This document shows, in pieces, positions 1 through 38,418 of a stretch of 41,019 nucleotides of DNA (within the stretch, counting starts at the first letter, position 1; each line of letters begins with the position of its first letter). The notes beneath the pieces were generated by a model. That model ran no database searches. It saw only the letters and a list, made by a program, of their open reading frames with translations, and was not told the origin of the DNA. Source of the DNA: an uncultured Ruminococcus sp. (GTDB lineage: Bacteria; Bacillota; Clostridia; Oscillospirales; CAG-272); contig CACYWW010000011.1 of the NCBI GenBank assembly GCA_902778145.1, positions 1 through 41,019 on the forward strand, read 5' to 3'. The translations under genes were made by a program, and so were the position numbers.

Positions 1-99
1 GCGAAGCGTCTTCATTTCTTCATTAGCCCGCTTGCGGGCGTCTTCATTTTCGGCGCGGCAAAGTTTATACAAAATACTTCCTTATCACGCCGCGCCGAA
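1..99. repeat. Hairpin-repeat array, locus 1 (cut by the window edge)
   Basis: CTTCATT occurs at 10-16, 18-24 and 42-48. Between the copies lie a GCGAAGC mini-hairpin (1-7) and a 6-bp hairpin GCCCGC/GCGGGC (26-39). Next to it is a perfect 11-base inverted repeat, 49-59 with 89-99, around a 29-base spacer. The same repeat and hairpin types recur at locus 2. The array lies just beyond the 3' end of the minus-strand lipoprotein gene and continues off the left edge. Bases 100-138 hold nothing recognisable. Confidence 0.75.
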
Positions 100-138
100 T
101 TCGTGGCAGTTCTTTTTTTGACGTTCAGCGGTCTTATA

Positions 139-2559
139 TCACCCCATATCCGCCACAACGACCTTCAATTTCGCTTCAAATCCCATATACGTCGCGGTGA
201 CCGTCGTTTCCCCGACGGACAGCGGCTTTATCACGCCTTCATTGTCTATCTCTATTATGTTCGTATCGTAACCGGAATATTTGACGGACTGCTTCCAGTA
301 CTTGAGCTCCTGTGAGCTGCCGCACGATAATTCCGTTTTCTTTCCCCAGAGGACCAGATAATCGTTCGCCGCGCTTTTCGCTATGAATCCGGGCTGCTTC
401 ACCTCGTTCTTATAGTAGAACGTCACCGTATCGGTCTCGGGATAAAACGCGACCGGTGCGTCTCGTTTTATCGAATTCGGTATGATCATCAATTCCGCGG
501 TGAGTGTACCGTACCTTGCGTAAACGCGCGTTAATTTGTCGCCTTTGAGCGTCACTGTCTGATTTTCGGCGTCCACGGTCACCTGTTCGGGATCGTACGT
601 ATATTCTATCTTATCGAGTATATCCTTGCCCGCTTCTTTTGTATCGCCGTTTTTGTCGACGTACATGACCGTAAAATCATACGCCATACCCTTGAACCGA
701 ACGGGGATATACGCGGATTTATACGGTCCGTCGAGCCGTATGCCGGAGACCTCGGGAGCGTGTTCAATGTCCTTTAAGCTTGTTTTATCAGCCGGGCGCG
801 ATATCACGTTTTCCGGCGTATCGTAGTTATCCGAGCCTATGAACTGCACCGGCGCCAGTCTCAGCCCCCAAACGCCCCAGGCGGAGCCCTCGGGACAATA
901 CGCGTAGCCGATGAAATGCTGCTTGTTGAATATGTCTATATGTCCCGAAGCGTCGCCGGTAATACCCATGTTATGTATGCCGGATTCGATGAGCGAGCCT
1001 TGCGTCGTATGTCTCAGACGCACCTCGCTGCGGTAATATATACCGTCGTAGGATACGTTCACGTGGACGTAACAGCCACCGGAAAATCTGTTGCCCGCCG
1101 CAACGGAAACAAAACATTTATAAGCGTCCACATATTTGAAATCCGCGCTGTCCTCACCGAGACCGTCGTGACGGTAGGCTATGCCGCGGAATTTCAGTGT
1201 CTCCGGCCAGTTTTCGCTCGTCGCGTCGGCGGTGTAAACTCTTGTCGAAAACGTATCGTCGCACCACGTTACGTAAAGGTACAGCGTATCTCCGACAACG
1301 ACCATCGAGCCTTCGCCTGCGCCCCATTGACCCTTCAGGCCGTCAAACGCGACGATGGGTCTCGGCTCGGAGCCCCAGCCGCCGACGCCCCATTTTTCAA
1401 TGCAGGTGCCCGCGGGATCCTTTGTTCTTGCGACGAAAAGGTTGTTGTCAACGCCGCCGGGCCACAGCACGGAGGTATACGTTATGTAATAATAATCGCC
1501 GATCTTTATCGCTCCGGGATCGCACGTCCAGTGCCAGTCCTCGCTTGCCTGAGTCGGCCTTACGGCGCCCGTGTCCGGCGTCCACGTCAGACCGCTGTCA
1601 TACGATTTTCTGTAAACTCCGACGTCCGCTTCGCCGCCGAAGCCGAGAGTACCGGCAAGCCAGCAGTCAATTGAGTCGTCGTCGTTTATTATCATGCTCG
1701 GCCCGTACCTGTATGTGCCGTTGAAAATATCCCACCCTTTGTTTGCAAGGCGGAAGACCGAGCCCTCCTCCGGCGCGTCGCCGTCGAGGTACGCGGACTT
1801 TATATCATATCCGTCCGCGCGTTTTTGTATATAAAGCTCTCCGTTCTTTTCGATGCACAGCACAAGGTCGAGCTTCAGGGTATTTGACAAAAGCTGCGCG
1901 TATTCCGAGTACGTCACATTATCGGAATTCTTTTTGCCGAGATCCATATAATCGGATACTCCCGCTTCTGCGGCTGTCTTTGCGACGCCGTTCTTATCTG
2001 CGTAATCCCTGTATCCCAAAGCGTACAAAAGCCCGCGCAGGACCTCGCCGTATGTCACGGGCAGATCCGGCCTGAACTTATCCGAGCCGGGTCTTATCAT
2101 AAAGCCCTGATTTACCGCTATCTCCGCGAATTTCATCTCCTGCGAATACGCGGTCATATCGGAATAGTCGTTTTGACATATATAATAATGCTCGCGCTGC
2201 GCAAAGCCGGAATATTTCACTATGTCGCGTGCAAACGAAGCGCGGTCGAGCAGATCGTCGGCTTTCGCGTTTTCGTTTCCGAAATACGAGCCCGATCTGA
2301 GCCTTTCAAATATCGCATCCCCGTCACCGTCGTCCTCAAGCGGCTGATCGGACGTGTTCATGCCCGTCAGATCCTCGTCCGGTATCATGTACTGTGTGCC
2401 CTCCGGCTCCGTTTCCGGAGCCCCGCTTGTTTCTGATACCGTATCCGTGTCTTTCACCTGTGCCGCCGTCGTTTCATCCGGTCCCGTGTTACAGCCGGAT
2501 AAAACCGGCAAAAGCATCAGAACCGAAATAATGATCGCCGTGATCCCTGAACGTTTCAT
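139..2559 (-). CDS. Secreted lipoprotein: SLH-like region, sialidase-type propeller, Ig-like C-terminus
   Basis: This 806-residue protein has a signal peptide ending in a lipobox (LSGC, Cys23) and should be anchored to the outer face of the membrane. Residues about 30-70 are an acidic Thr/Glu-rich linker. Residues about 70-235 resemble S-layer-homology repeats (FRPDLPVTYGEVLRGLLYAL). Residues about 265-600 look like a sialidase or arabinanase-type beta-propeller, with an Asp-box (SYDSGLTW) and repeated 'DPGAIKIGDYYYITY'-like blades. The last 80 or so residues fit a Big_2 bacterial Ig-like domain (VGETTVTATY). A role in binding or trimming glycans at the cell surface is likely, but no catalytic residue can be assigned. 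The start follows a purine-rich stretch (GAGAGGCAG) and overlaps the stop of a possible small upstream ORF by four bases (ATGA). A minus-strand promoter lies at 2767-2795. Confidence 0.8.
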   Translation of the reverse strand: MKRSGITAIIISVLMLLPVLSGCNTGPDETTAAQVKDTDTVSETSGAPETEPEGTQYMIPDEDLTGMNTSDQPLEDDGDGDAIFERLRSGSYFGNENAKADDLLDRASFARDIVKYSGFAQREHYYICQNDYSDMTAYSQEMKFAEIAVNQGFMIRPGSDKFRPDLPVTYGEVLRGLLYALGYRDYADKNGVAKTAAEAGVSDYMDLGKKNSDNVTYSEYAQLLSNTLKLDLVLCIEKNGELYIQKRADGYDIKSAYLDGDAPEEGSVFRLANKGWDIFNGTYRYGPSMIINDDDSIDCWLAGTLGFGGEADVGVYRKSYDSGLTWTPDTGAVRPTQASEDWHWTCDPGAIKIGDYYYITYTSVLWPGGVDNNLFVARTKDPAGTCIEKWGVGGWGSEPRPIVAFDGLKGQWGAGEGSMVVVGDTLYLYVTWCDDTFSTRVYTADATSENWPETLKFRGIAYRHDGLGEDSADFKYVDAYKCFVSVAAGNRFSGGCYVHVNVSYDGIYYRSEVRLRHTTQGSLIESGIHNMGITGDASGHIDIFNKQHFIGYAYCPEGSAWGVWGLRLAPVQFIGSDNYDTPENVISRPADKTSLKDIEHAPEVSGIRLDGPYKSAYIPVRFKGMAYDFTVMYVDKNGDTKEAGKDILDKIEYTYDPEQVTVDAENQTVTLKGDKLTRVYARYGTLTAELMIIPNSIKRDAPVAFYPETDTVTFYYKNEVKQPGFIAKSAANDYLVLWGKKTELSCGSSQELKYWKQSVKYSGYDTNIIEIDNEGVIKPLSVGETTVTATYMGFEAKLKVVVADMG

Positions 2560-2735
2560 TTTTTTCTGCCTCTCTTTCCGTATGATGTCTTTTGACAGCC
2601 GTACGTCCCGTCGTACGGATCGCTTTCACTGCCGCTTATCTGATCCTTTGAAATCGAACGGATCCGTTTAAATATGTATTTTTTCGGACGTGCCCTTCGG
2701 CTGTCCGCTCCCGGGCTTATTGCTTTTTTACCCAT
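2556..2735 (-). CDS. Possible 59-residue basic leader ORF
   Basis: A short, Lys/Arg/Ser-rich reading frame starts about 25 bases after the predicted transcription start of the lipoprotein transcript. It ends in an ATGA overlap with the lipoprotein start codon, the arrangement expected for translational coupling. There is no good Shine-Dalgarno sequence and no recognisable homology, so it may only be open sequence in a roughly 200-base leader. A 7-bp hairpin (CCGTACG, 2599-2605 with 2612-2618) lies inside it. Confidence 0.2.
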   Translation of the reverse strand: MGKKAISPGADSRRARPKKYIFKRIRSISKDQISGSESDPYDGTYGCQKTSYGKRGRKK

Positions 2736-2766
2736 AATAAGCCGCCCGGCCAAAACCGGTCTTTTG

Positions 2767-2795
2767 ATTATACCACGGTTTTCCGCAAAATTCAA
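2767..2795 (-). promoter_or_regulatory. Sigma-A promoter for the sialidase-like lipoprotein
   Basis: On the minus strand TTGAAT (2795-2790) and TATAAT (2772-2767) are separated by exactly 17 bases. Transcription should begin near 2760, giving a leader of about 200 bases before the lipoprotein start. It is back to back with the plus-strand promoter at 2890-2918. The rest of the 2560-2950 gap holds only the leader and a GC-rich stretch near 2835-2870. Confidence 0.7.
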
Positions 2796-2889
2796 CACCA
2801 AATCGGGATTTTGAGTGTCTTAAATAAAAAACGCGGGTATTCCCGCGGCCGCCGCACCGCCCGGGCGTGATATTTATGAGCGGATCTGC

Positions 2890-2918
2890 TTGATTTTTTA
2901 AAAAAATCGGTGTATAAT
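2890..2918 (+). promoter_or_regulatory. Sigma-A promoter for the 2951 lipoprotein gene
   Basis: TTGATT (2890-2895) and TATAAT (2913-2918) are 17 bases apart. The transcript would start near 2925 and carries GAAAGGACGG as ribosome binding site ahead of the ATG at 2951. Confidence 0.75.
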
Positions 2919-2950
2919 GGCATGTACCGATACTTGAAAGGACGGACATT

Positions 2951-4396
2951 ATGATAAAAAGAATATTGATGATCATTGCGGGACTGCTCAGCATACAGAT
3001 GTGCTGCTCATCCTGCGGAGGCAGCACTCCGGCTGAGCCGGAGACCGAAAGCATACCGACGGAAAACACGGCCAAGGAAACGGAGAGCGACACGGTCACC
3101 GAAAAACCGGAGGAGTCGCCGTATCTCATCCCGGATGCGGCGCGAGTGGATCTTTCCGCGTTCACCCCGGAGCTTTTCAAGGCGTCGTTCAAAACCGGTC
3201 AGGCGTCCGTACCGGAGCTTACGGCGGAGGGCGTGAAATTCACGGCGAACAAGCAGTCGCGCGATCCGTTCATATATTTCAAAATGAACAGTATGTATGA
3301 GGCAGCCGGATATCCCGTGCGCGATGACGGCGAAAACTTCGTACCGTTCACCGCGGACGAAAAAAAGACCGTGGTACTCAAGGTGCAGGCCGAATGGGGC
3401 GGCGCTTTTGAGATGTTCTATACCACGGGAAAAAACAAGGAAGTCAAAAGCGGACGCTCGATCATATCCGTATACGGCGGAGATTCCGAGTTCTTCGGAG
3501 ACAGGGTCACACAGTACGTCGTATTCGACGCGTCGAAGGGCGTGAAGGGCTGGTCCGGCACGTTCAACGACGGCTTCAGATTCGATTATACGAACTACGT
3601 CGAGGAGGGCGATACGTTCCTGCTCAAGGGCATAGCGTTCTGCGCGGATCCCGCGGAAGCGAAGGCTTACATAGCGGCCGACAAAGGTGCCGTGACAGAG
3701 CCGGCGGCGGTCGGAAAGGGATATTACGTCTGCCTCTATGAGGACAGGCTGCATATACCGGAGAACAACGTCAAGGGTACGGTCTATTCGTCGCTTGACG
3801 AAGCAAAGGCGGCGTGCGATAAACAGAAACGGTTCGGGTACCGCGTCGCCGATGAGAACGGAAACGTGGTATACACGCCGTACACGCTTCTGCAGTGCGA
3901 CCTTCTGAGAGAGGGCCATTACGTGACCGAATACGCGCGGAAGACGAAGTTCAGATACGGAGACTCCTGCACCAATCCCGGCATCAATCACCGCCCTCTC
4001 CGCACGAGCTGCGACAGACTCGTCGACTGGATACTCTACCGCACGGGCTTCACCGATCAGCCTCTCGTTCAGGGCTGCGTCGTTTCGAATCTCGTAACGT
4101 GGTGCGAAAAGAGCGGATTTGAAAAGATAACCCGTGTGAAAGACCTGCAGCCGGGCGATATAATATTCGTCCGCCCCGCAAAGGACGGCGGGCCGCAGCA
4201 CACGTTCATGCTCGCGTCCGCGGTCGATAATAAAGGCAATTCGCAGAGATACGACCACGGCTCCGACACGCGCATCATGTCGAAACAGCCGTCAACGGAG
4301 CTTTTTGACAAGCCCGAAGCCCCGTTCATCTGCGCATACCGCCCGGTCGTGACCGAAAAGAACAACACATCGTCCGAACGGTACCTCGGTAAATAA
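2951..4396 (+). CDS. Exported lipoprotein with a C-terminal Cys/His amidase-like (NlpC/CHAP-type) domain
   Basis: The 481-residue product starts with a hydrophobic signal and a cluster of cysteines (MCCSSC), so it is probably a lipoprotein, though the lipobox is irregular. An acidic Thr/Pro/Glu linker follows (about 25-60). Residues about 70-240 are rich in beta-strand-like segments and may be a jelly-roll binding domain. The last 130 or so residues resemble papain-like cell-wall amidases: a Cys in TSCDRLVDW (C354), the phrase DLQPGDIIFV typical of NlpC/P60 and CHAP folds, and a His in QHTFML (H417). Peptidoglycan hydrolysis or amide cleavage at the surface is inferred. It has its own promoter and ribosome binding site and ends facing a minus-strand operon across a hairpin-repeat array. 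Confidence 0.7.
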   Translation: MIKRILMIIAGLLSIQMCCSSCGGSTPAEPETESIPTENTAKETESDTVTEKPEESPYLIPDAARVDLSAFTPELFKASFKTGQASVPELTAEGVKFTANKQSRDPFIYFKMNSMYEAAGYPVRDDGENFVPFTADEKKTVVLKVQAEWGGAFEMFYTTGKNKEVKSGRSIISVYGGDSEFFGDRVTQYVVFDASKGVKGWSGTFNDGFRFDYTNYVEEGDTFLLKGIAFCADPAEAKAYIAADKGAVTEPAAVGKGYYVCLYEDRLHIPENNVKGTVYSSLDEAKAACDKQKRFGYRVADENGNVVYTPYTLLQCDLLREGHYVTEYARKTKFRYGDSCTNPGINHRPLRTSCDRLVDWILYRTGFTDQPLVQGCVVSNLVTWCEKSGFEKITRVKDLQPGDIIFVRPAKDGGPQHTFMLASAVDNKGNSQRYDHGSDTRIMSKQPSTELFDKPEAPFICAYRPVVTEKNNTSSERYLGK

Positions 4397-4480
4397 CGTC
4401 AGTTGAATAAGACCGGCTTCGCTCGTTTCAGACCTATAATTCAGAATATAAACCCACAAGCGAAACTGCGTCTCTCACCA

Positions 4481-4583
4481 ATGAAGCAAAGTCGTCCCCG
4501 TTTCTTAATTAGCGACCGCAGGGAGCGTCTTCATTTCTTCATTAGCGAAGCGTCTTCATTAGCCCCGCAAGGGGCGACTTCAT
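4481..4583. repeat. Hairpin-repeat array, locus 2
   Basis: CTTCATT occurs at 4529-4535, 4537-4543 and 4554-4560, CTTCAT at 4578-4583, and the inverse ATGAAG at 4481-4486. Between them sit an imperfect hairpin (4512-4527), the mini-hairpin GCGAAGC (4545-4551) and GCCCC-GCAA-GGGGC (4562-4575). The array lies between two convergent genes and abuts the terminator at 4586-4614. The stretch 4397-4480 holds nothing recognisable. Confidence 0.85.
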
Positions 4584-4585
4584 CG

Positions 4586-4614
4586 AAAAAGGACTTGAAA
4601 TGCAAGTCCTTTTT
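4586..4614. terminator. Rho-independent terminator, bidirectional
   Basis: A perfect 12-bp stem (AAAAAGGACTTG with CAAGTCCTTTTT) closes a 5-base loop, with A and T runs at the two ends so that it can act on either strand. It begins at the stop codon of the minus-strand PF06541 gene and also faces the end of the plus-strand lipoprotein gene. Confidence 0.85.
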
Positions 4615-5579
4615 CATGTTTCGTCAGTACAGTCCGATGATCTTCCCCTTTGAAGCCATTTCCGGCTAAGTCTGACGGTTTCGTCTTCAATTTCCTTTTT
4701 CAGCTTTTTCGCGTTTTCCGGCGCCTTGTCCTCATCATAAAGAATATCTATAAGGCTGTTCTGTTTCTCGATTATCCTGTTTTTGATCGATCCGGAGGTT
4801 TCTATGTTATACGCGATATCCGTTTTCTTCTGATCGATCTGCGTACCTATCTCTTCTAACCTTGCCTCAACGTTCTGCTTCAGCCGCTCGGTTTCTTTTC
4901 TGATCCGCTCCATTCTCGCGGCGATCTTTTCCGTTTTGTATATCACATTCGGGTATGCTTCGGCAAATCTTCTCGCAAACACCGAACGGTCACTCAGAAG
5001 AGCCCTGATCTCGCGGTTGATCTCCTCTGTGTTGTCCGCCTCGCTTTTCTCAACTCCGGTCTTTACCAGTTTCAGCACAAAATGAGAAATAATATAGTCG
5101 GCGGTGATTATTAAGGTCAGTCCCCCTGCTACAGCGATCCTTGCCGGCATTATGATATTCCCGAACAGACCGAGAAGGATCGGATTTGTCAGCTTTACAA
5201 TGATGACGCCGCCGAGTCCGAACAGAACGAGATTTCCGATCCAGACCCGTCCGTGAAGATTCATGGGCTTTGTGCTGTAATCCCACCATCTTGCGTGAAA
5301 ACGTTTTTCGAACACAAAACTCGTCAGATATTCGACAACTCCGCAAAGCACGAATGAGACGGCAAAAGCGGTTCCGTATGACATCTCGGTTACGGGTATG
5401 ATGTCGGACGCAGCTGTTATGAGGAGCGCTCCGAACCCGTATATCGGCAGCCAGGGACCGGCAAGGAATCCCCGGTTTATGAATCTGCGGTACTGTATAA
5501 GCTTAAGCGTAACTTCTATGATCCACCCGGCGAATGCATAACTGAAAAATATAAGTATGTAGTTTATGACAGTTTCCAT
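4614..5579 (-). CDS. PF06541-type membrane protein (putative ABC transporter type IV permease)
   Basis: 321 residues. The N-terminal 170 or so hold about five membrane segments and the family signature: a tryptophan/glutamate pair in the first helix (AGWIIEVTLK) followed by INRGFLAGPWLPIYGFGA. This matches Pfam PF06541, named a putative CmpB-like ABC transporter component, whose true function is unknown. The C-terminal 140 residues are charged and predicted to form a long coiled coil. The start is preceded by AGAAGG. It is the last gene of a minus-strand unit, 17 bases after the membrane-protein gene at 5597-6490, and ends at a strong terminator. Confidence 0.8.
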   Translation of the reverse strand: METVINYILIFFSYAFAGWIIEVTLKLIQYRRFINRGFLAGPWLPIYGFGALLITAASDIIPVTEMSYGTAFAVSFVLCGVVEYLTSFVFEKRFHARWWDYSTKPMNLHGRVWIGNLVLFGLGGVIIVKLTNPILLGLFGNIIMPARIAVAGGLTLIITADYIISHFVLKLVKTGVEKSEADNTEEINREIRALLSDRSVFARRFAEAYPNVIYKTEKIAARMERIRKETERLKQNVEARLEEIGTQIDQKKTDIAYNIETSGSIKNRIIEKQNSLIDILYDEDKAPENAKKLKKEIEDETVRLSRKWLQRGRSSDCTDET

Positions 5580-5596
5580 TAACGTCCGACCTTCTT

Positions 5597-6490
5597 TTAC
5601 TTGTTTATTTTCTTTGGGGACCTCTTTTTCATCTCATATTTGTCCCGTTCGATATGGACGTCAAATTCCTGTTTCTCGCCGTCCGGCGAAACAATCGTAA
5701 GAATTGTGTCGCCTGACCGTTTGAAATCCACGTGAAGCGTATAATCCCCAATGCTTTCCACATACCGTATCTCGGCGTTACCGTATTTTTCGTCCGCGAG
5801 AAATACGGTATACGTGTCATCAAACCGATATTCTTCGCCGTTTTCCGCGATCTCAGTGCTGTAAACAGGCGGATTGAGCAGGCAAATGACTGTAAGTGCA
5901 GCGATAATGGTACCGCTTATCGCCACACCTGTCACTTTGATCATCTTGTTTTCAAATATCGCTGCAGGATAGAGGATCATTGCGCAAGCACAAAACAGAA
6001 CGATCAGGATATACCGCGGCATGGAAAACTGAAAATCGGAAAAATAACCCATATATGATCGCGCAGTCAGAACGATCATCGGCAAAAGGATCAGATATCC
6101 CCACCATTTGCCCTTCTTCATCCAGTAGCCGATAAACCCCATCGGAAAACAAAGCAGCGTCCATATGAACCACGTCCTGTAATACCCGATCAGCGCCCAA
6201 CCGTGTTCGCTGAACGGCACCTGTATCAGATATACCAGCGGCTGGCTTATCAGAAAAAACACAAAACATTTCAGCGCCGAGTCCAGGTTGGATTTGCTGT
6301 TCATAATGATGAGAATTCCGAATAAGATCCACACCTCAAAGGTTACCGCGATTGTATGAAAAGAAGTATAGCGCAAATCCGGTATGAGCGCCATAACGGC
6401 GGTGAATACACCTGCTGCTATGGCCGCTATGATCAGTTTCGGCCACGTCAGATCGATACCGCCGAATACCTTTTTTATTGCCTTTTCCAT
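5597..6490 (-). CDS. Membrane protein of unknown function
   Basis: 297 residues with about seven hydrophobic segments in the first 210, then a soluble tail of about 85 residues that looks beta-rich (RFDDTYTVFLADEKYG) and probably faces outward. It resembles a recurrent uncharacterised Firmicutes family beginning MEK-IKK-FGGI-LTWPKL; no function is known to me. The start codon lies inside the flavodoxin remnant, in another frame, and GAGGGG 11 bases upstream may serve as ribosome binding site. If so, remnant sequence now supplies the translation signal. Confidence 0.65.
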   Translation of the reverse strand: MEKAIKKVFGGIDLTWPKLIIAAIAAGVFTAVMALIPDLRYTSFHTIAVTFEVWILFGILIIMNSKSNLDSALKCFVFFLISQPLVYLIQVPFSEHGWALIGYYRTWFIWTLLCFPMGFIGYWMKKGKWWGYLILLPMIVLTARSYMGYFSDFQFSMPRYILIVLFCACAMILYPAAIFENKMIKVTGVAISGTIIAALTVICLLNPPVYSTEIAENGEEYRFDDTYTVFLADEKYGNAEIRYVESIGDYTLHVDFKRSGDTILTIVSPDGEKQEFDVHIERDKYEMKKRSPKKINK

Positions 6491-6582
6491 CGTATATGCA
6501 GCCCCTCAGGATCTTTTTTGACGTCCTCCGCCGTAAAACCGTGCGCGTTCGGACTGCCGTTGATAAGTAATACCTTGCTCAT
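6475..6582 (-). pseudogene. Flavodoxin-family oxidoreductase remnant (internal deletion)
   Basis: A 35-codon frame begins MSKVLLINGSPNAHG, the FMN-binding start of NADPH-dependent FMN reductase/flavodoxin-family proteins. It jumps directly to FTAEDVKKDPEGLH, which resembles a segment near the C-terminal end of the same family (typically HG-T-EDV---EGLQTMR). The roughly 150 residues expected between the two are missing. The join falls at a His-Gly pair that occurs in both places in the family, which suggests a deletion through short homology. The frame then runs into the start of the next gene and stops. Confidence 0.65.
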
Positions 6583-6657
6583 TTGTTTTCGTCTCTGTTA
6601 CCGCCGTTTTTGTTTTTTATATATCAAACGCTATTATCCCGTCGCTTAGTCAGCTGA

Positions 6658-7095
6658 TTATTCAAAGTTCCAGAACCCGGTACCTGTTTCGGGGTCATGC
6701 CGCCTTCCGATCGTTCCGCCCCGCACAGGTCTCAGCTCGATCTCCGCCGTATAGAGGACCGTTATCGCTTTGATATGTCCTCCCGCGACGCAGTGAACTC
6801 CGTCGCCGTTCTTGTATGTGAACAAGGCGTGCGTATGGGCAAAAAGTCCATCGACGTCGGAAACAACGTTTCCGTTGAGTGAGACAAGCTCAAGCATACC
6901 CTGAACGGTCCTTGTTTCAAAATTTCCGGTTTCCGGGATAAAGGTCTGGATCTGAGCCTCACTGCAGCCGCCTATCCCGCTGAAAACGGCGGAGCATATC
7001 TTTTCCTTTTCGCAGATATCCAGTATGCCGCGGACGATCTCATCGCCCTTGTCCATGCGTACGTATACCGTGTCATTGTACCTTCTGTAATCCAT
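6658..7095 (-). CDS. PPC/DUF296-domain protein
   Basis: 145 residues, the full length of a single PPC (plant and prokaryote conserved, PF03479) domain. It begins with the family's typical start (YVRMDKGDEIVRGILDIC) and continues with SAVFSGIGGCSEA and the histidine motif LFAHTHALF, which in the family lies at a possible metal site. Plant members bind AT-rich DNA through an added AT-hook, which is absent here, so the role of this one is open. AGGAG sits 6 bases before the ATG. It lies 68 bases downstream of the isomerase-like gene in the same unit. Confidence 0.8.
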   Translation of the reverse strand: MDYRRYNDTVYVRMDKGDEIVRGILDICEKEKICSAVFSGIGGCSEAQIQTFIPETGNFETRTVQGMLELVSLNGNVVSDVDGLFAHTHALFTYKNGDGVHCVAGGHIKAITVLYTAEIELRPVRGGTIGRRHDPETGTGFWNFE

Positions 7096-7163
7096 ATCAT
7101 TCTCCTGTTTCTATATCCGGATGAAATTACCGATCCGCTCAGGTCCTGCGGTAAATACCGGTT

Positions 7164-8024
7164 TTACGCATCCGGGCTTTCCATCATCCGCCGCAGACGG
7201 CGGGCGGATCCGAGCAGTCTTGAAAGTATCGCGTCACGCTCGCTGTCCTGTGCATCAAGACTCTGATGATGAGCTTCAAGAACGCAGTCGCCCGCATAGC
7301 AGACCGCCTTGAGATTATCGACAACGCTGTTCCAGTCCACCGTCCCGTCTCCCGGGATCAGATGTTCGTCCATACCCGCGCCGTTGTTGTCCTGAATATG
7401 AAGAGATCGCGGAGCGCAGGCGCATTCGCGCAGAACGGACGGCGGAATATCGAAACAGTTTGCGTGTCCCGTATCGAAACACCAGCCGAAATACGGTGTA
7501 TTAAGCACTTTTACAAGCCCTGCGATCACACGAGGATCCTTTGACGCGCCCCACAGAAGATTTTCGGATAAAACGGCAATGTTGTGCTTTTCCGCGGCTT
7601 CGATACAGGCGCCGTACGCCTCGGCGTTTACGGCGATGAACCTTTCTGCTGCTTCGATTATCTTTCCGTTTTCCCGGAATACCGGGTGAACGACGATAAA
7701 TCCCGCGCCGAGGATCGCCGCGGTCTCTATTGCACGGATCACCGTCGGGTCATTTCCGGCTTCGCCGGGCGCGTGAGCGTGAGTATACGGGACCCCGGTC
7801 TTTTCCGCGTGTTCGCGAAGCTCGTAAGCCCATTTCCCGTATCCGTCTGACATAAAAGGCGATCCGGACTCCGTCTGGTAATCAAGCGCCATGTCAAGCC
7901 CTTCAAAGCCGATCGAAGCGAGTCTGTCGGCGGCTTTTATCGCCGGATAACCCGGCTCGAACACCGAGGTCGTTGTCACGATCCTTTTCTGTATTTGATC
8001 AACCCGGATTTGCATTACTCTCAT
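7164..8024 (-). CDS. Sugar phosphate isomerase/epimerase-like TIM barrel (AP-endonuclease-2 family)
   Basis: 286 residues in the xylose-isomerase-like TIM-barrel fold. Likely metal ligands can be read in order along the strands: Glu in VLSENLLWG, Asp and His in WCFDTGHAN, His in SLHIQDNNG, and Glu in VLEAHHQ. Members act on keto sugars, inosose or similar polyols; the substrate here cannot be told. Two starts are possible. The first ATG has GAGG only two bases away, so the second (three codons later) may be the real one. It is the first gene of the unit driven from 8246-8274. Confidence 0.8.
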   Translation of the reverse strand: MRVMQIRVDQIQKRIVTTTSVFEPGYPAIKAADRLASIGFEGLDMALDYQTESGSPFMSDGYGKWAYELREHAEKTGVPYTHAHAPGEAGNDPTVIRAIETAAILGAGFIVVHPVFRENGKIIEAAERFIAVNAEAYGACIEAAEKHNIAVLSENLLWGASKDPRVIAGLVKVLNTPYFGWCFDTGHANCFDIPPSVLRECACAPRSLHIQDNNGAGMDEHLIPGDGTVDWNSVVDNLKAVCYAGDCVLEAHHQSLDAQDSERDAILSRLLGSARRLRRMMESPDA

Positions 8025-8170
8025 GACCTCAAATCACAACTCTTTCACAGCCGATCTTGTTTTCTGAAAGGAAACGTACGGCACCCCGCCATAACGTCTT
8101 TGGGCACTGTATTCTCCGAATAAAGTCCGTTTCATTCTTCAATATTCCCATCGACAGATGATTGATCGTT

Positions 8171-8224
8171 TTCGCCTTGTTGACAGAGGCGATGAGCATC
8201 ACGCGGATCGAGACGCAGACGGCG
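8171..8224 (-). pseudogene. Fragment of a four-helix-bundle (23S IVS-type) gene, copy 1
   Basis: On the minus strand this 54-base stretch reads VCVSIRVMLIASVNKAK, matching the last helix of copy 2 at 9184-9237 with 48 of 54 bases identical. The homologous part stops abruptly on both sides. It lies in the leader of the isomerase transcript, so it is transcribed but not an intact gene. Confidence 0.7.
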
Positions 8225-8245
8225 AATATTCCTGTTTCCTGATAA

Positions 8246-8274
8246 ATGATAGCATATTTGTGTGAATAAATCAA
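8246..8274 (-). promoter_or_regulatory. Sigma-A promoter for the isomerase-PPC-membrane protein unit
   Basis: On the minus strand TTGATT (8274-8269) and TATCAT (8251-8246) are 17 bases apart. Transcription should start near 8239, giving a leader of about 215 bases that runs through the four-helix-bundle fragment. It could drive everything down to the terminator at 4586-4614. Locus 3 of the hairpin arrays begins 16 bases upstream of its -35 box. Confidence 0.6.
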
Positions 8275-8289
8275 GGGGAACGGAAAACA

Positions 8290-8402
8290 GTGAAATATAT
8301 TGCCTGACGGTAAAATGTGAAATAACGGCTTCGCCGATGTGAAATTTTGCGGTTTCACCGCAAAGTGAAATGAAATCCACCCACCCGATAGGGTGGATTT
8401 CG
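8290..8402. repeat. Hairpin-repeat array, locus 3
   Basis: GTGAAAT occurs at 8290-8296, 8317-8323, 8339-8345 and 8365-8371, with a fifth TGAAAT at 8371-8376. Every interval holds a hairpin: TTGCC/GGTAA (imperfect), CGGC-TTC-GCCG, TTTGCGGT-TTC-ACCGCAAA (perfect 8 bp), and AAATCCACCC with GGGTGGATTT (perfect 10 bp). The sequences differ between hairpins but the pairing is kept. The array passes directly into the terminator-like hairpin at 8406-8437. Confidence 0.85.
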
Positions 8403-8405
8403 TTG

Positions 8406-8437
8406 AAAAAGCCCGGCGCTTGCGCGTCGGACTTTTT
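8406..8437. terminator. Terminator-like hairpin joined to array locus 3
   Basis: A 14-bp stem with a TTGC loop, five A on one side and five T on the other; one mismatch and one wobble pair in the RNA of either strand. It could end minus-strand transcription from the 8624-9043 gene or plus-strand readthrough. The following bases to 8623 contain nothing recognisable. Confidence 0.65.
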
Positions 8438-8623
8438 CTGAGCGTGACGGTCAATTTAGATGCATTTCCGTAAAAAACCGGCTTTTCGGGCATCTTAGGA
8501 AAAGCAAACGTACATTTTAAATGCAGATTGCCGCTTTAAACGTGCAGAATAGATGCGTCTTTATTTCGACAAACCGGAATTTATCAATAACGCAATTCGT
8601 TAAGTAATTCACCAATCCTGCTT

Positions 8624-9043
8624 TTATAGGAATATATCATGTTTTCCATTTTGTGCAAAGAGCGGTTTCAAATTGACTTTTTTAAAGAGCCCGATTTTGT
8701 AGGGTTGCCCCACAACAACCGAGTAATCATCTCTGTGTTCCAAACTTAAAAGAACAGCGTCTGATTTTTCTCCGTTTTCATGCAAAATGCTTGCATTCCA
8801 ACAAATGCCGCTAGCCTTGATTTCACCTTGTTTCGCTTGCACTTTATGAACCTCAGTCAACCGGTTGATCATACCAGCCGAATCAGGGTGATCATCACCC
8901 GAATCAACTGCTGTGAAACTAATTTCGCCATCTTTATTTAATACCGCCCCAAATGGATAGAATTCACCATGTATTTTAAGCTGGTTGACTGCAAACGGTA
9001 ACAATGCATTGAGTAACTCTTCGCATTCTTCTTTTGGTGTCAT
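8624..9043 (-). CDS. Hypothetical 139-residue protein
   Basis: I do not recognise the family. The product is small, soluble and acidic, with the opening MTPKEECEELLNALLPFAVN and a block GEIKASGICWNASIL; no signal peptide or membrane segment is seen. A clean AGGAGGT lies 7 bases before the ATG, which supports a real gene. Base composition is clearly richer in A+T than in the neighbours, hinting at recent acquisition. It sits alone between two remnants of the same four-helix-bundle gene (8171-8224 and 9165-9416). Its size and setting would suit an immunity-type or other accessory protein, but that is only a guess. Confidence 0.7.
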   Translation of the reverse strand: MTPKEECEELLNALLPFAVNQLKIHGEFYPFGAVLNKDGEISFTAVDSGDDHPDSAGMINRLTEVHKVQAKQGEIKASGICWNASILHENGEKSDAVLLSLEHRDDYSVVVGQPYKIGLFKKVNLKPLFAQNGKHDIFL

Positions 9044-9142
9044 AAGATTACCTCCTGAACAGATGAGATCATTTGAAAAATATAATTGTCATTACAATAA
9101 AAAGCAATGCCGCTTCTCTTCAAATCCCGGTTTATCGAGTTC

Positions 9143-9148
9143 ATTATA
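9143..9148 (-). promoter_or_regulatory. Likely -10 box for the 8624-9043 gene
   Basis: TATAAT on the minus strand (9148-9143), about 100 bases before the start codon. The position 17 bases further up reads GGGTTA, a poor -35, so the promoter may be weak or depend on an activator. It lies right after the end of the four-helix-bundle pseudogene. Confidence 0.4.
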
Positions 9149-9164
9149 GCACAAAAATGCATTT

Positions 9165-9416
9165 TTAACCCCTGATGTTACCTTTCGCCGTGTTGATCGA
9201 GGCGATGAGCATTACGCGGATCGAGGCGCAGGCGGCGTCGAGGGTTTTGTACGTTTGCTCGTCGATATAGTTCGTTTTATAAAGCAGTTCGAGCCAATAG
9301 CCGGTTTCGTTTGCCTCTTTGAGCTCGATTTGCAGTTTTGCGATAAAATCCGGCTTGCCGTGGGCGTACTGCGCTTCACGGATGTTTGCGCCAATGGATG
9401 TGCCGGAACGTCCGGT
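9165..9416 (-). pseudogene. 5'-truncated four-helix-bundle protein gene (23S IVS type), copy 2
   Basis: The frame reads GTSIGANIREAQYAH, then FIAKLQIELKEANETGYWL, then ACASIRVMLIASINTAK to a TAA. This is the typical C-terminal two thirds of the four-helix-bundle family (TIGR02436/PF05635), first noted in proteins encoded by 23S rRNA intervening sequences. A TAA stands directly upstream of the homologous part and the expected first 40 or so residues are missing, so the gene is broken. The break lies 13 bases from the stop codon of the 9430-9957 gene, so the missing part was probably lost in a rearrangement at that edge. Confidence 0.8.
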
Positions 9417-9429
9417 TTACACCTATTTA

Positions 9430-9957
9430 TTATTCTGATTCCAAACTCGTTTCGTCAGAATAAACCGTCCAAGGCTCGTAGCGGCTGACGTCCTTTATCG
9501 TACCGTGAAACATACTGAAATGACCTTTTTCGTTCATGTGGAAAAATCCCTCGACGATAACATATTTTCCGTTATACGCCTGCGCTTCCTCATACGGCGT
9601 CGCCCTGCTCCCGAGTTCGAGCCATATATCGTTTCCAAGCCGATGCTTATAGTTTTCCATATCAAGCGACAGATAATTGCCCTCGAATTCAAGATTGCCG
9701 ACGCCTATGACACGGACTAATTTTCCGTCATACTTTTCCGGAGTCGCAATAAGCTGTATCATCGTCACGTCCTCCGCGTACAAATTTACGGGATTTACGC
9801 CGTCGCGGTAACCGGATTCTATACGCGCTTTTTCTCGGTATTTGCATACATTTATCATTATCACGCAACTGACAACGCCTGCAATCAAAAGGCTTGCCGC
9901 GATAATAACTATAAGCAGTACCGTCTTTTTTCGAGATTTCTTTTGTTCGGGATTCAT
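9430..9957 (-). CDS. Membrane-anchored protein with a possible OB-fold outer domain
   Basis: 175 residues from the ATG preceded by GAGGTGATGAT; a longer frame upstream exists but has no ribosome binding site. Residues about 10-32 form a single membrane anchor after a Lys/Arg-rich start, so the rest faces outward. The outer domain has the feel of a small beta-barrel (KYDGKLVRVIGVGNLEFEG and AYNGKYVIVEGFF), a pattern I have seen in uncharacterised exported proteins. No function can be given. It is transcribed away from the hairpin array at 9991-10153, and its 3' end borders the truncated four-helix-bundle gene. Confidence 0.65.
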   Translation of the reverse strand: MNPEQKKSRKKTVLLIVIIAASLLIAGVVSCVIMINVCKYREKARIESGYRDGVNPVNLYAEDVTMIQLIATPEKYDGKLVRVIGVGNLEFEGNYLSLDMENYKHRLGNDIWLELGSRATPYEEAQAYNGKYVIVEGFFHMNEKGHFSMFHGTIKDVSRYEPWTVYSDETSLESE

Positions 9958-9990
9958 ATCATCACCTCGGATAAATCGTTTTATAAATAC

Positions 9991-10153
9991 AGTGAAGTTT
10001 GCGCCTTTGGCGCAAGTGAAGCAGAGTGAAGTTTGCCGCACCGCGGCAAGTGAAGTTAAGTGTTCCGCCTATCGTGGCGAAGCCACACTTCACGCGCGAA
10101 GCGCACTTCACTAGGCGAAGCCGACTTCACGTTCCACGCAAGCGGAACACTTA
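9991..10153. repeat. Hairpin-repeat array, locus 4 (largest, nested)
   Basis: GTGAAG occurs at 9992-9997, 10016-10021, 10026-10031 and 10050-10055, then the inverse CTTCAC at 10088-10093, 10106-10111 and 10125-10130. Hairpins fill the intervals: TTGCGCC/GGCGCAA (9999-10014), TTGCCGC/GCGGCAA (10033-10049), and stems around GCGAAGC near 10076-10121. A perfect 11-base inverted repeat (TAAGTGTTCCG 10057-10067 with 10143-10153) encloses the second half, so hairpins are nested inside a larger one. The array lies between the tRNA terminator and the start of the 9430-9957 gene. Confidence 0.9.
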
Positions 10154-10156
10154 GTT

Positions 10157-10186
10157 GAAAACCCGATGCTTTCGCATCGGGTTTTC
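10157..10186. terminator. Rho-independent terminator of the tRNA operon
   Basis: A perfect 13-bp stem (GAAAACCCGATGC with GCATCGGGTTTTC) with a TTTC loop ends one base before the 3' CCA of tRNA-Tyr. A and T runs on both sides allow it to work in both directions. Confidence 0.85.
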
Positions 10187-10271
10187 TGGTGGGGGAAGGT
10201 GGATTCGGACCACCGAAGTCAGTGACAACAGATTTACAGTCTGCCCCCTTTGGCCGCTCGGGAATTCCCCC
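10187..10271 (-). tRNA. tRNA-Tyr (anticodon GTA)
   Basis: The minus strand folds as a class II tRNA: acceptor stem GGGGG with CCCCC, A as discriminator, encoded CCA, anticodon loop with GTA, a long variable arm (GTCACTGAC region) and a T-arm GGTCCGAATCC. The length is 85 bases including CCA. It follows tRNA-Thr in the same transcript after a 4-base gap. Confidence 0.95.
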
Positions 10272-10275
10272 ATAT

Positions 10276-10350
10276 TGGAGCTGGTGAACGGAGTCGAACC
10301 ATCAACCTGCTGATTACAAATCAGCTGCTCTGCCATTGAGCCACACCAGC
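10276..10350 (-). tRNA. tRNA-Thr (anticodon TGT)
   Basis: The minus strand gives acceptor GCTGGTG with CACCAGC, D-arm GGCTCAATGGCAGAGC, anticodon stem GCTGA/TCAGC around TTTGTAA (anticodon TGT), T-arm GGTTCGACTCC, discriminator T and encoded CCA; 75 bases. It is the first gene of the tRNA operon, with its promoter at 10394-10422. Confidence 0.95.
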
Positions 10351-35583: not shown

Positions 35584-38418
35584 ATGGAAAACAAGAATAA
35601 AAACGATATGTCGGTAGACGACCTCGTAAAACAGCTCAAGCTCGTGCTTGATATCGACGAGGACGATACCTCGCCTATCCCTTCCGAGGAGATAAAGCGG
35701 GAGGACGCGCCGTCCGATGACGCCGCGCCTGTCGATAACGCGGTGGAAAAGAAGCCCGCGGAAGCGTACGCCTCCGGATCCATGTCCGAAAAGGTCCGTA
35801 TGCTCGACGAGTTCTTTGACGCGGAGGAAGAAAAGAAGACCCGCAAAAAGGACCGCAAAAAACGCCGCGACAAAAAGAAAAACAGGCAAAAGGACGGCGA
35901 GCCGGACGATATCATCATCCCGGTGCAGGAAAAAAAGGGCGAGCTTACGGACGACGAGCTTTCCGAATTTGCCGAAGAGATCGGCGATATGTTCTCGGAG
36001 CCCGACGACGTAAAGGCGTCGACCGCTCCCGAGACCGAACCTGAACCCGAGCCGGAACCCGAACCGGAACCCGAGCCCGAGCCGGAACCCGAGCCCGAGC
36101 CGGAACCCGAGCCTGAACCCGAACCCGAGCCTGTTGATGACGCCAAACCCGATGAAAACGATCGGACGATCATACTTCCCGACGACGATACGGTAAAAGA
36201 AGAGACCGGAAAAACGCCGGCTGACGACGAGCTCGGCGTGATAATAACGCAAGCGACGTCGAGCCTTGACGATGCAGCGGTCGATATCACAGACATCATC
36301 CCGGAGCGGGACGAGGCGGATGACGTACCCGTTGACGACGACGGATACGACAGCCCGTTCGTCAAAAACGCGCTCGAACCTGAGCCGGAAGCGCCCGTCA
36401 CGGACGCGACAAGAAAGTTCGCACCGGCGAGGCCTTCCGAAAAGCCCGACGAAACGCCCATAGAGGATGATGCGCTTCCCGACGACATAGCCGGCTTCGA
36501 CACTCTCTTCTCCGATATGCACGGAGACGGCGAGGACGGCTACACCTCCTCCGATGAGGCGATAATGGACGCCTTCGGCGAGATGCCGGAAAAACCGGCG
36601 AAAAAGCCCGTTGCTTCATTTGCCGATATACCCGGGCTGAGCGAAAGCGAGCTTCCGGAGGACGATGCCGAGGAGGAAAAATCTGACGGAAGAGAACGGA
36701 ACTACGACGAATTCACTTCATACGACCAGAAAAGGATGTTCCTTGACGCGTATAAACGCAAATACCAGACGACAAAGGTGTCGCTCGCGCTGTCAGCCGT
36801 GTTCGCCGCGCTTGTGTTTTTGTATGAATGCTTCTCGCTTTCACCTGACAAATTCCCGTATTTCTGCTCACCCGTGAACAATCCGGCTGTCTTCATCCTC
36901 ATCGATCTTCAGCTTTTCGCGCTCTGCTCCTTGTTCGCCCTCAAATATATAATCTCCGGGCTCAAGGGCATTTTCTCCGGAAAAGCCACGCCGTCGTCGC
37001 TCGGTGCGCTGGCGGTGATCTTCACGTTCGTGTACGGTCTGATCGCGGCGTTCACGGCGCAGCCGTCGCCTCATCCCGTTATGTCGGCGTCGGCGCTCTG
37101 CGTAGTCCTCATGATCAATGCGGAGCTTCGATGCGTCAAGCGCGATACGCTCAACTTCAGGATCGTCTCGTACTCCAAAGACAAGCAGAAATTCGTGATG
37201 GAGTCTTATTCTCCACGCAAAAACTCCGTTGAGGAGAACGAATTCTACGACTATGTGCCCGAAAATCCGACGATGCTCCGCATCTCAAAGACGAATTTCA
37301 TCCGCGGCTTCATGGGCTCCAACCTGAAGAGCGGCTCGTCGAAGGGCTACGTCAATCTGATGTTCCCGATACTCGCGCTCATTTTCGCCGGAGTGCTCGC
37401 CTTAGTGCTGATATTCCGCCGCGATATAGGCTCGGCGATAAACGCGGCGTACACCGCGTCCGCCCTTTGCATGCCCGCCGCGGTCTTTGCGGCGATAACG
37501 CTGCCGTCGTACTCCTGCGCGAAGCGCACGTCGGATGACGACAGCTGCGTGATAAGCGAGGCGGCAGCCGAGGAATACGCCGACGCTTCCGTAGTCACCT
37601 TCGAGGACAGCGACGTATTCCCGCCGTCGCTTGACAAGATAACGTCCGTGCGGCTTTACAACGACAGCCGTATGGATCACATCATGTATGTGCTCACGAG
37701 CCTGTTCCGCAAGATCGGCGGGCCGCTGCTCACTATCTGTGAGAACGCCGCGCGTGAATACAAGGAATTCTCCAACAGCGTTACAATAGAAAACGCGGTG
37801 GAGGGAGGTATCGAGGCGACAGTCGACTCACAGAAGGTCTATCTCGGCTCCGCCGGATACATGGGCGGCAAGCTCGATCCGAAGTACACGGCGGACGACA
37901 GGCAGTACGACAAAAACGACAAGAGCCGCATAATGTACATGATCATAAACGACATCGTGTGCGCCAAGTTCTACATAGAATACGAGATGGATAAGGATTT
38001 CGTCTCTGTGATCAAACAGCTTTCGACGTCGACGCGCTGCGTGGCGATACGCACGCTCGACCCGAACATAGACACGGGACTCATCAAGAACAGGCTCGAC
38101 ACGGAGATATATCACTGCAGGATAGTGAGATCGCGTGAGTACGAGCGCAGGAAGGAAGTCAGCAAGAGCAGCAACGGCGCGATCGTTTCAAAGAACAGCG
38201 TGAAGGCTCTGCTCCGCACGCTCATGCTCTGCGACAAGACCGTCTATTCGTCAAAGATAAACATGGTCATCTGCTTCCTTGCGATGGTCATAGGACTGCT
38301 GTTCAGCGTCGTGCTCATCTGGACGAAGACGTACGGCTCGATCAGCGCACTGCACGTGCTTGCGTATCAGGCGCTTCTGTGCGCGGTCATCCACATCGTG
38401 ACGAAGCTCAATATCTGA
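35584..38418 (+). CDS. P1B-type ATPase-like membrane protein lacking the catalytic motifs
   Basis: 944 residues. Residues 1-395 are acidic and disordered, with a pure Glu-Pro run. Eight membrane segments follow (about 399-417, 433-457, 472-493, 498-516, 590-613, 620-645, 893-915, 920-941), six before and two after a large cytoplasmic part, as in heavy-metal P1B ATPases. The large loop aligns by eye with their P and N domains: DASVVTFEDSDVFPP (670-682) stands where VVFDKTGTLT belongs, VEGGIEATVDSQKVYLGS (739-756) matches the N-domain, and the IVCAKFYIEYEMDKDFVSVI stretch matches the segment after it. The phosphorylated Asp motif DKTGT, TGES and GDGxND are absent, so it cannot pump by the normal cycle. 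A sensory or scaffold role is inferred. The start has AAAGGCAGG upstream. Confidence 0.7.
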   Translation: MENKNKNDMSVDDLVKQLKLVLDIDEDDTSPIPSEEIKREDAPSDDAAPVDNAVEKKPAEAYASGSMSEKVRMLDEFFDAEEEKKTRKKDRKKRRDKKKNRQKDGEPDDIIIPVQEKKGELTDDELSEFAEEIGDMFSEPDDVKASTAPETEPEPEPEPEPEPEPEPEPEPEPEPEPEPEPEPVDDAKPDENDRTIILPDDDTVKEETGKTPADDELGVIITQATSSLDDAAVDITDIIPERDEADDVPVDDDGYDSPFVKNALEPEPEAPVTDATRKFAPARPSEKPDETPIEDDALPDDIAGFDTLFSDMHGDGEDGYTSSDEAIMDAFGEMPEKPAKKPVASFADIPGLSESELPEDDAEEEKSDGRERNYDEFTSYDQKRMFLDAYKRKYQTTKVSLALSAVFAALVFLYECFSLSPDKFPYFCSPVNNPAVFILIDLQLFALCSLFALKYIISGLKGIFSGKATPSSLGALAVIFTFVYGLIAAFTAQPSPHPVMSASALCVVLMINAELRCVKRDTLNFRIVSYSKDKQKFVMESYSPRKNSVEENEFYDYVPENPTMLRISKTNFIRGFMGSNLKSGSSKGYVNLMFPILALIFAGVLALVLIFRRDIGSAINAAYTASALCMPAAVFAAITLPSYSCAKRTSDDDSCVISEAAAEEYADASVVTFEDSDVFPPSLDKITSVRLYNDSRMDHIMYVLTSLFRKIGGPLLTICENAAREYKEFSNSVTIENAVEGGIEATVDSQKVYLGSAGYMGGKLDPKYTADDRQYDKNDKSRIMYMIINDIVCAKFYIEYEMDKDFVSVIKQLSTSTRCVAIRTLDPNIDTGLIKNRLDTEIYHCRIVRSREYERRKEVSKSSNGAIVSKNSVKALLRTLMLCDKTVYSSKINMVICFLAMVIGLLFSVVLIWTKTYGSISALHVLAYQALLCAVIHIVTKLNI
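36037..36132 (+). repeat. (Glu-Pro)16 coding repeat
   Basis: Sixteen GAR-CCN codon pairs in a row, written as imperfect 6- and 12-base repeats. The run encodes a stiff, negatively charged rod like the Pro-rich spacer of TonB. The near-identical DNA units make it prone to length change by slippage in steps of six bases, which keep the frame. Confidence 0.9.

Follow-up and report, generated by a model that had tools for sequence, protein, structure and literature searches.

Hairpin-repeat arrays in gut Clostridia as probable front ends of small gene cassettes at tRNA 3' ends

Arrays, gene remnants and tRNA genes in the window

The window, a stretch of 41,019 nucleotides from an uncultured Ruminococcus sp. 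(contig CACYWW010000011.1), carries four arrays of short repeated words and variable hairpins in its first 10.2 kb, followed by a tRNA-Tyr/tRNA-Thr pair with Rfam tRNA scores of 48.8 and 67.9 bits (Table 1). All four arrays are co-oriented and point away from the tRNA pair at 10187-10350, with a terminator-like hairpin, T1, at one end of loci 2, 3 and 4. Anchoring at this pair would explain why the arrays stop at 10.2 kb, and the T1 layout of the window's tRNA-Tyr recurs beside other tRNAs in relatives. We read the arrays, with a probability of about two in three, as the leading parts of small gene cassettes, which form a co-oriented row at a tRNA 3' end. A sequence-only reading of the window had treated the arrays as the whole element; in relatives they are instead the non-coding front of a larger unit, which also holds a four-helix-bundle gene and mostly lies behind the 3' end of a tRNA gene.

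The four arrays are present in the sequence where the sequence-only reading had placed them, and a word-agnostic scan in 250-bp tiles, with hairpins joined by one 6-mer and dinucleotide shuffles as the control, found two to four units only within 4351-4750, 8101-8550 and 9851-10300. None of 492 shuffled tiles reached two units and no tile past 10.3 kb scored, so that the absence of arrays from the other 31 kb holds. Three of the four arrays thus stand clearly above chance. Locus 1, by comparison, is a stub at the contig end with a single complete hairpin between words and fails the scan, and locus 2 passes weakly, with two units joined by the 6-mer ATTAGC, not by CTTCATT. The loci form one family with one fixed-word design, as had been proposed, except that locus 4 is not plain GTGAAG: the inverse complement, CTTCAC, accounts for about half of the words, which are arranged around a long closing stem. 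Locus 2 has a shorter inverse half of the same kind, ATGAAG against CTTCAT.

No named class had been recognised for this layout, and the Rfam family Gut-1 (RF01706) proves to cover the motif in part. Gut-1 matches lie at 8288-8376 (46.5 bits), 10082-10157 (33.8 bits) and 8339-8405 (29 bits), none of them, the best at 46.5 bits included, reaching the gathering cut-off of 50 bits, and the Rfam search of the window gave no Gut-1 match at loci 1 and 2. Apart from these sub-threshold matches, no match of the arrays to a known repeat or insertion sequence (IS) end turned up. They are far from absent in related genomes, as Gut-1 by itself has matches in 107 of 245 genomes from the order, over the cut-off in 87. 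The window's own genome (2.42 Mb in 84 contigs) has at least 64 Gut-1 places at E up to 10, with at least 13 over the cut-off, all outside the window, on the basis of 150 scored candidates out of 295. A pattern for the array centre found at least 116 stretches in GTDB contigs, of which 90 hold arrays according to the hairpin finder. Among the 80 matches listed with titles, most are metagenome-assembled genomes of Clostridia or Oscillospiraceae, many derived from ruminants and others from other animals; the listed records from other phyla hold no arrays and appear to match by chance. One of seven viral contigs carries an array (L184, IMGVR_UViG_3300031867_000663, classed as viral, at 5024-5176). 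Several Gut-1 or array matches fall at contig ends, and the proposed units may account for the frequency with which contigs break off in such repeats in these genomes.

A complete array reads, in order, T1, a stretch whose partner further on completes a long stem, the word with its hairpins, the closing stem, and the inverse-complement word with its hairpins. The short word stands in three to four copies between hairpins and its inverse complement then follows about equally often. Word classes include GTGAAAT, GTGAAG, ATGAAG, TGATAT, TGATGT, GTTATA, GCTAAAT and others such as TATGTAATCA. Within one array the word is as a rule constant and the hairpins differ, and the hairpin counts support the signs of selection on structure that had been noted in the window. 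Conserved array tails were considered as element ends and dropped, as the tails mark subfamilies. One GTGAAAT subfamily in the window's genome, G000 (L009-L014, L016, L017), is marked by a hairpin head of the GCCGACTGTCC type and by a GACGTTTGGCACACAAACGTC tail; these loci have no tRNA within the fetched flanks and seemingly lie behind protein genes.

Table 1 Features of the window that bear on the cassette row
Feature	Position	Strand	Basis or remark
tRNA-Tyr, encoded CCA at 10187-10189	10187..10271	(-)	Rfam tRNA match; anchors the cassette row
tRNA-Thr, next to tRNA-Tyr	10279-10350		Rfam tRNA match
T1, terminator-like hairpin (GAAAA-stem-TTTTC), directly after the tRNA-Tyr CCA	10157..10186	(-)	sequence
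Locus 4 array: GTGAAG words and hairpins, long closing stem, CTTCAC words and hairpins	9991..10156	(-)	
Open reading frame of 175 amino acids, starting soon after the locus 4 array	9433..9957	(-)	candidate cargo or native neighbour
PF05635/TIGR02436 four-helix-bundle gene remnant, lacking the N-terminal third	9176..9413	(-)	profile matches
Open reading frame of 139 amino acids after the PF05635 remnant	8627..9043	(-)	no Pfam match
Junction GCATCTAAATTGACCGTCACGCTCA, abutting the next T1; putative cassette right end	8439..8463	(-)	sequence
T1 hairpin, locus 3 unit	8405..8438	(-)	sequence
Locus 3 array: GTGAAAT/ATTTCAC words and hairpins, one half collapsed	8288..8402	(-)	best Gut-1 match
Probable PF05635 C-terminal remnant (SIRVMLIASVNKAK), just past array 3	8161..8217	(-)	tblastn
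Xylose-isomerase-like TIM-barrel gene	7167..8024	(-)	PF01261, 79.3 bits
T1 hairpin, locus 2 unit	4585..4615	(-)	sequence
Locus 2 array: ATGAAG words and hairpins, then CTTCAT	4481..4584	(-)	sequence
Locus 1 array, ATGAAG/CTTCATT class, cut by the contig end	1..99	(-)	

The table includes three open reading frames (ORFs) of the array strand that could be cargo. The 139-residue ORF and the TIM-barrel gene are possible cargo, and the 175-residue ORF may be either cargo or a native neighbour; its relative in genome G254 is separated from the tRNA by ~4 kb and has no array immediately upstream. Away from the row, a short-period repeat with units of 12, 18 or 30 bp, rich in CCGAAC, lies at 36028-36133.

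A four-helix-bundle gene shares the unit with the array

The partner of the arrays is a four-helix-bundle protein of the family PF05635/TIGR02436, named '23S rRNA intervening-sequence protein', for which 2rld is the only solved chain matched. It emerged from clustering of the ORFs that adjoin arrays, as one of many small clusters (4 loci). In the window, the remnant at 9176-9413 scores 2.6e-37 with hmmsearch over positions 43-121 of the 123-position model, or 70.9 bits for TIGR02436 (cut-off 24) and 61.2 bits for PF05635 (cut-off 33.8), and a weaker remnant at ~8161-8217 shows 44.7% identity over 38 residues in tblastn (E 5e-5, alignment 8161-8274). In the congener G251, an array of the locus 4 class occupies the corresponding tRNA site and is followed by an intact PF05635-type gene of 115 residues, and the word class of locus 2 has a relative with an intact PF05635 gene in the window's own genome (G000:C5), adjoining a tRNA-Val.

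PF05635 is present in 116 of the 245 genomes, and co-occurs with Gut-1 well beyond chance: 91 genomes have both, 25 PF05635 only, 16 Gut-1 only and 113 neither (odds ratio 25.7, p 5e-27, kinship ignored). We examined 90 PF05635 genes, comprising the 30 best-scoring, the next 58 in the list and two picked by hand, one of which was known to lie near Gut-1. At least two hairpin units lie within 600 bp upstream of 41 of the 90 genes, or 39 of 88 when the hand-picked two are omitted, while none of 900 composition shuffles has such an upstream array and ten of the 90 genes have at least two units downstream. Most copies of the unit, including those of the window, are shortened to an array alone or an array with a scrap of the PF05635 gene. 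A second group of PF05635 genes (L336-L344, L346, L347, L351, L363) is flanked by short tandem repeats that are inverse to each other and have no hairpins, such as those of the CATAATG and CAATTGT types, and several of these genes stand just upstream of tRNA-Leu.

The word class of the array tracks the phylogeny of the protein. On a tree of 47 PF05635 loci, made up of the 41 above and six chosen for having both array and gene, seven word classes require six changes, the minimum possible, against a mean of 29.6 for shuffled labels, none of 200 shuffles being as low. TGAAAT, ATGAAG and GCTAAAT each form one group; for TGATAT, 32 of 500 shuffles are as low as the observed tree, some branches of which are long and whose bootstrap support is unsettled. 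The hosts of the 47 loci belong to many families. This agreement shows long cohesion of array and gene, and binding of the array by its own PF05635 protein would be the natural reading of the match between word and protein.

Most of these units also share their position. In 32 of the 47 array-bearing PF05635 loci a tRNA gene lies upstream on the same strand within 450 bp, with none on the other strand, compared with 12 of 50 PF05635 loci without a word label. By our reading, the gap between the tRNA end and the start of T1 is 0-3 nt in 31 of these 32 loci. The ends of transfer-messenger RNA (tmRNA) genes are occupied as well (L047, L048). In a survey of tRNA-Tyr sites, at least 13 of 61 carry arrays, from five word classes: 15 sites reached three words, of which L283 and L330 were dropped as not being hairpin arrays by eye, and 13 is a lower bound, with a doubtful anchor in L300, L308, L312 and L333 and five sites incomplete. 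By eye, L300, L281 and L282 resemble arrays. Inverted partial copies of the tRNA 3' end lie downstream of tRNA-Tyr in L275, L276, L280, L287 and L290, most of which are without an array.

The folded strand and the control of the gene

Hairpin statistics bear on whether the array acts as DNA or RNA. Counts of hairpins and pairs, which depend on a simple hairpin finder, were taken from 530 distinct hairpins on the inverse-word strand. Mismatches in this set are 143 G.A against 17 T.C, and the loops are 184 cGNAg, 104 cGNNAg, 6 cTNCg and 236 of other kinds; the bias in both suggests that one strand per unit is the folded one. The 64 G.T and 47 A.C pairs do not differ significantly (p 0.13), as expected of DNA, while the T1 hairpins, which serve as an RNA-type control, have 22 G.T and 8 A.C (p 0.016). 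The GNNA loops of the arrays are not confined to GNRA, and cGNAg loops give very stable DNA mini-hairpins. Of 42 loci, 27 have a promoter-like site between the last word and the ATG of the gene, compared with 22% of shuffles; the spacing is 16-17 bp in 25 of the 27, and the median distance from the last word to the ATG is 54 nt. The array probably works mainly as DNA, a conclusion that we hold with moderate confidence.

If the array were instead transcribed, it would be a structured non-coding RNA and the adjoining PF05635 protein an RNA binder, as its Avd kin might be. Gut-1 is indeed listed as a non-coding RNA, from 'human gut only', in the part of the 2010 article that concerns it (Weinberg et al, 2010; PMC2864571), and RNA would likewise be compatible with the G.A pairs that stand in tandem, with some of the loops, and with the 15 of 42 loci in which no promoter-like site separates array and gene. 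Yet the array stands behind a terminator-like hairpin and, in the other 27 loci, before the promoter-like site, the excess of G.U is not significant, and the GNNA loops go beyond GNRA. Moreover, each array is inverted and its two halves favour opposite strands. Strand counts and position lean against an expressed RNA, and we consider this explanation quite unlikely.

The same position of the words, just before the promoter-like site and a median of 54 nt from the start codon, would also be expected of an operator array that auto-regulates the PF05635 gene and, together with a tRNA terminator, has no role in movement. The agreement of word class with the protein tree would fit such control in cis equally. 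However, 104 of 108 Gut-1-type arrays have no PF05635 gene behind them and some precede other genes, and the class of array varies at the same site between congeners, so that regulation alone strikes us as improbable.

Exchange at tRNA sites and its possible mechanism

In each of two genera, the unit at a given tRNA site varies between genomes, or several units are stacked there. In the window's genus the tRNA-Thr/tRNA-Tyr site is readable in 7 of 12 genomes, and the arrays at the seven sites are of the GTGAAG class (two), the ATGAAG class (two), the TGAAAT class, a half array of ATTTCAC and the TATGTAATCA type, with genes after the array that vary between genomes. Arrays of the family turn over between related species. 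In a second genus (g18), the tRNA-Leu of G003 is followed by an array, PF05635, a GNAT gene, a methyltransferase gene and then an AMP-binding gene, that of G047 has the same arrangement without the PF05635 ORF, and that of G065 carries an array of a different class and a MazG-like gene ahead of the AMP-binding gene. The AMP-binding protein common to the three has 763 residues and is 96-99% identical. The flanks of G003 and G047 are likewise 96-99% identical and the array is the same, with nearly the whole PF05635 ORF absent in G047, which has likely lost it through a deletion that seems to end at a short repeat.

Candidate cargo was listed in 20 loci with longer flanks from the ORFs that share the strand of the PF05635 gene and begin no more than 260 bp from its stop codon; some ORFs in this listing look spurious. 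Six of these ORFs overlap the PF05635 stop by 4 nt. Pfam matches for nine candidate proteins comprise GNAT (two), MazG, nucleotidyltransferase, histidine phosphatase and transglutaminase-like domains, with three proteins unmatched, and the tRNA-Leu site of genus g18 adds a further GNAT, a methyltransferase and MazG. One GNAT gene stands behind a PF05635 gene or remnant at the tRNA-Tyr of G254, at the tRNA-Val of G000 and in G249, where it belongs to the third array of a stack of four; its DNA is 93-97% identical over 843-1035 bp. Three of the four arrays in that stack have a gene behind them; G254 has a stack of two. The unit junction, ...ATCTAAA.TG..CG...CA, was read in 13 distinct copies, 10 of which lead directly into GAAAA.

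The units might also spread passively, with no dedicated machinery, if tRNA genes, T1 hairpins and arrays underwent ordinary homologous recombination with one another. In G076 a mosaic array at tRNA-Tyr (L306) joins GTGAAG-class units to TGAAAT-class units behind a T1 shared with G130, the PF05635 gene of G254 looks chimeric by eye, and the G047 deletion seemingly ends at a short repeat. In the G254 gene, at tRNA-Tyr (L474), the N- and C-terminal parts resemble different clades. Against passive turnover stand the conserved associated protein and the sharpness of the boundaries, which read (C)CA|GAAAA or much the same at numerous different tRNAs, and we judge it unlikely.

REP elements are dispersed intergenic hairpins in both orientations, and the arrays resemble REP/BIME repeats in being dispersed, intergenic and made of hairpins in both orientations. 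Their spread by a RAYT (Y1) transposase would gain something from a RAYT-like gene in the window's genome (NF047646, 48.4 bits, below the curated cut-off of 80) and from a weak association, Gut-1 being matched in 32 of the 54 genomes with a RAYT-type match and in 75 of the 191 without one (p 0.0125, odds ratio 2.25). However, 75 of 107 Gut-1 genomes have no RAYT-type match under a 41-bit rule, and among the RAYT flanks listed an array occurs only at L244, ~250 bp away. Variable hairpins with a constant word are also the reverse of REP, and no linkage to RAYT was found. Family search, flank reading and co-occurrence together led us to reject RAYT/REP as the driver, and we regard this origin as very improbable. 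The RAYT-like gene at L244 itself lies near GTAGGG-type repeats that resemble ordinary REPs.

In the element that we propose, a complete cassette comprises T1, placed after a tRNA CCA or a conserved '...CA' end, the array, the PF05635 gene, sometimes cargo, and an end. The PF05635 gene mostly has its own promoter-like site, and in several units a small unrelated gene, the presumed cargo, comes next. This anatomy is observed, as are the linkage of array, gene and tRNA, the swapping of units between congeners at a shared site, and stacking, whereas the working that follows is inferred. The protein may recognise its own array, folded as single-stranded DNA, in a word-specific manner, and a putative recombination enzyme would join it in moving the cassettes. 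These would enter behind (C)CA at tRNA ends, replace one another and stack up there, and carry their cargo with them, while T1 would keep tRNA transcription or the transcript intact. More broadly, and here we are tentative, the units may represent integrase-free cassette capture, in which Avd/S23-type proteins would read word-specific single-stranded DNA arrays and load, exchange and stack cargo at the mature 3' ends of tRNA and tmRNA in a wide range of gut Clostridia, with the intervening sequences (IVS) of rRNA as relatives settled in rRNA. An RNA-level step, with ligation to CCA and then reverse transcription, would also fit joining at mature 3' ends; such a step is thinkable because PF05635 resembles Avd of diversity-generating retroelements in sequence and structure, as described in the pertinent part of one article (PMC10053308).

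Several observations weigh against the cassette reading or loosen its parts. With regard to the unit itself, 49 of the 90 PF05635 genes have no upstream hairpin array, and a same-strand PF05635 ORF lies downstream of only 4 of 108 Gut-1-type arrays, a count that short remnants would escape and that makes complete units a minority; none has such an ORF downstream on the other strand, and 2 of 104 have one upstream. TGATAT, GTGAAG and TGATGT are not single clades on the protein tree, with two changes each for GTGAAG and TGATGT and three for TGATAT, and linkage alone would also yield the match of word and protein. The pair counts of arrays and T1 hairpins differ in the expected direction without significance (Fisher p 0.14), and the promoter-like site is missing after the array in the 15 loci already mentioned. 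With regard to position and ends, no tRNA was called within 450 bp in 15 of the 47 loci, including all four of the GCTAAAT class, and the right-end sequence turned up only in the window's genus, G053 and G076. The cargo listing covered the same strand only, and the cargo genes of the window are candidates. The genomes are mostly fragmented, and in G047 a contig boundary within the array divides the site. We found no clean empty site that keeps the two flanks: the tRNA-Leu of G028 has no array, yet it is rearranged, a pfkA-like gene that lies divergently upstream of tRNA-Leu in G003 being 33 nt downstream in G028. Finally, no movement was seen and no moving enzyme was found, reverse transcriptases not having been searched for.

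The units are best compared with integron cassettes, which are tandem co-oriented small units with structure-conserved hairpins (attC arrays) and small cargo genes. They share with these the tandem co-oriented units, the structured hairpins of variable sequence, the small cargo (GNAT, MazG, nucleotidyltransferase and others) and the turnover between close relatives. Unlike in integrons, the structured part of the unit is long, 5' and word-repeated, the anchor is a tRNA CCA, and a PF05635 gene is carried. The integron integrase TIGR02249 is over its cut-off in none of the 245 genomes, the window's included, with weaker matches in 239, and we read the arrangement as an integron-cassette-like system in which no integron integrase was found.

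Other known systems fit in part. The Gut-1 consensus of three hairpins joined by GUGAAAU equals one half of a GTGAAAT-class array, but Gut-1, a small RNA in Rfam, is here one word class of a larger unit that is probably DNA. Like the 23S rRNA IVS of Leptospira and Coxiella, the units have an S23/IVP family protein with inverted and short tandem repeats near the ORF, and in Coxiella the section of the source on these elements describes heptamers before the ORF, which decays there too (PMC4990558). In contrast, the present units lie behind tRNA or tmRNA genes and not in rRNA, have hairpins between the words, and show cargo and stacking. The TAACTGA heptamers of Beggiatoaceae are likewise intergenic, directly repeated 7-mers at many loci; they differ in being described, in the relevant portion of that article, without predicted structure and with one inverted set only (PMC4679880). 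CRISPR arrays consist of identical repeats of ~24-47 nt with unrelated spacers. They were rejected as a match, as the array repeats here are 6-8 nt and the spacers self-complementary; cas genes were not searched for. With regard to miniature inverted-repeat elements and IS, no clean empty site was found, and the (C)CA before T1 could be either a duplication or part of the target. Because integrons, REP/RAYT, CRISPR and rRNA IVS each have at least one defining feature that was looked for and not found here, we file the units under none of them. The pieces are known separately, whereas we found no description of their union, of the tRNA cassettes or of the pairing of word and protein in open-licence PubMed Central articles.

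Two orphans meet in these units. Gut-1 has been catalogued as an RNA since 2010, and the four-helix-bundle family S23/IVP is familiar from the intervening sequences of rRNA, its function and means of spread being described as unexplained (PMC4990558). Both gain a testable setting of co-oriented units behind tRNA genes with swappable pairs of word and protein, and the word classes provide a simple handle for locating such units in genomes. The arrangement points to a way in which Clostridia of animal guts might exchange genes, one that would be independent of integrons and RAYTs.

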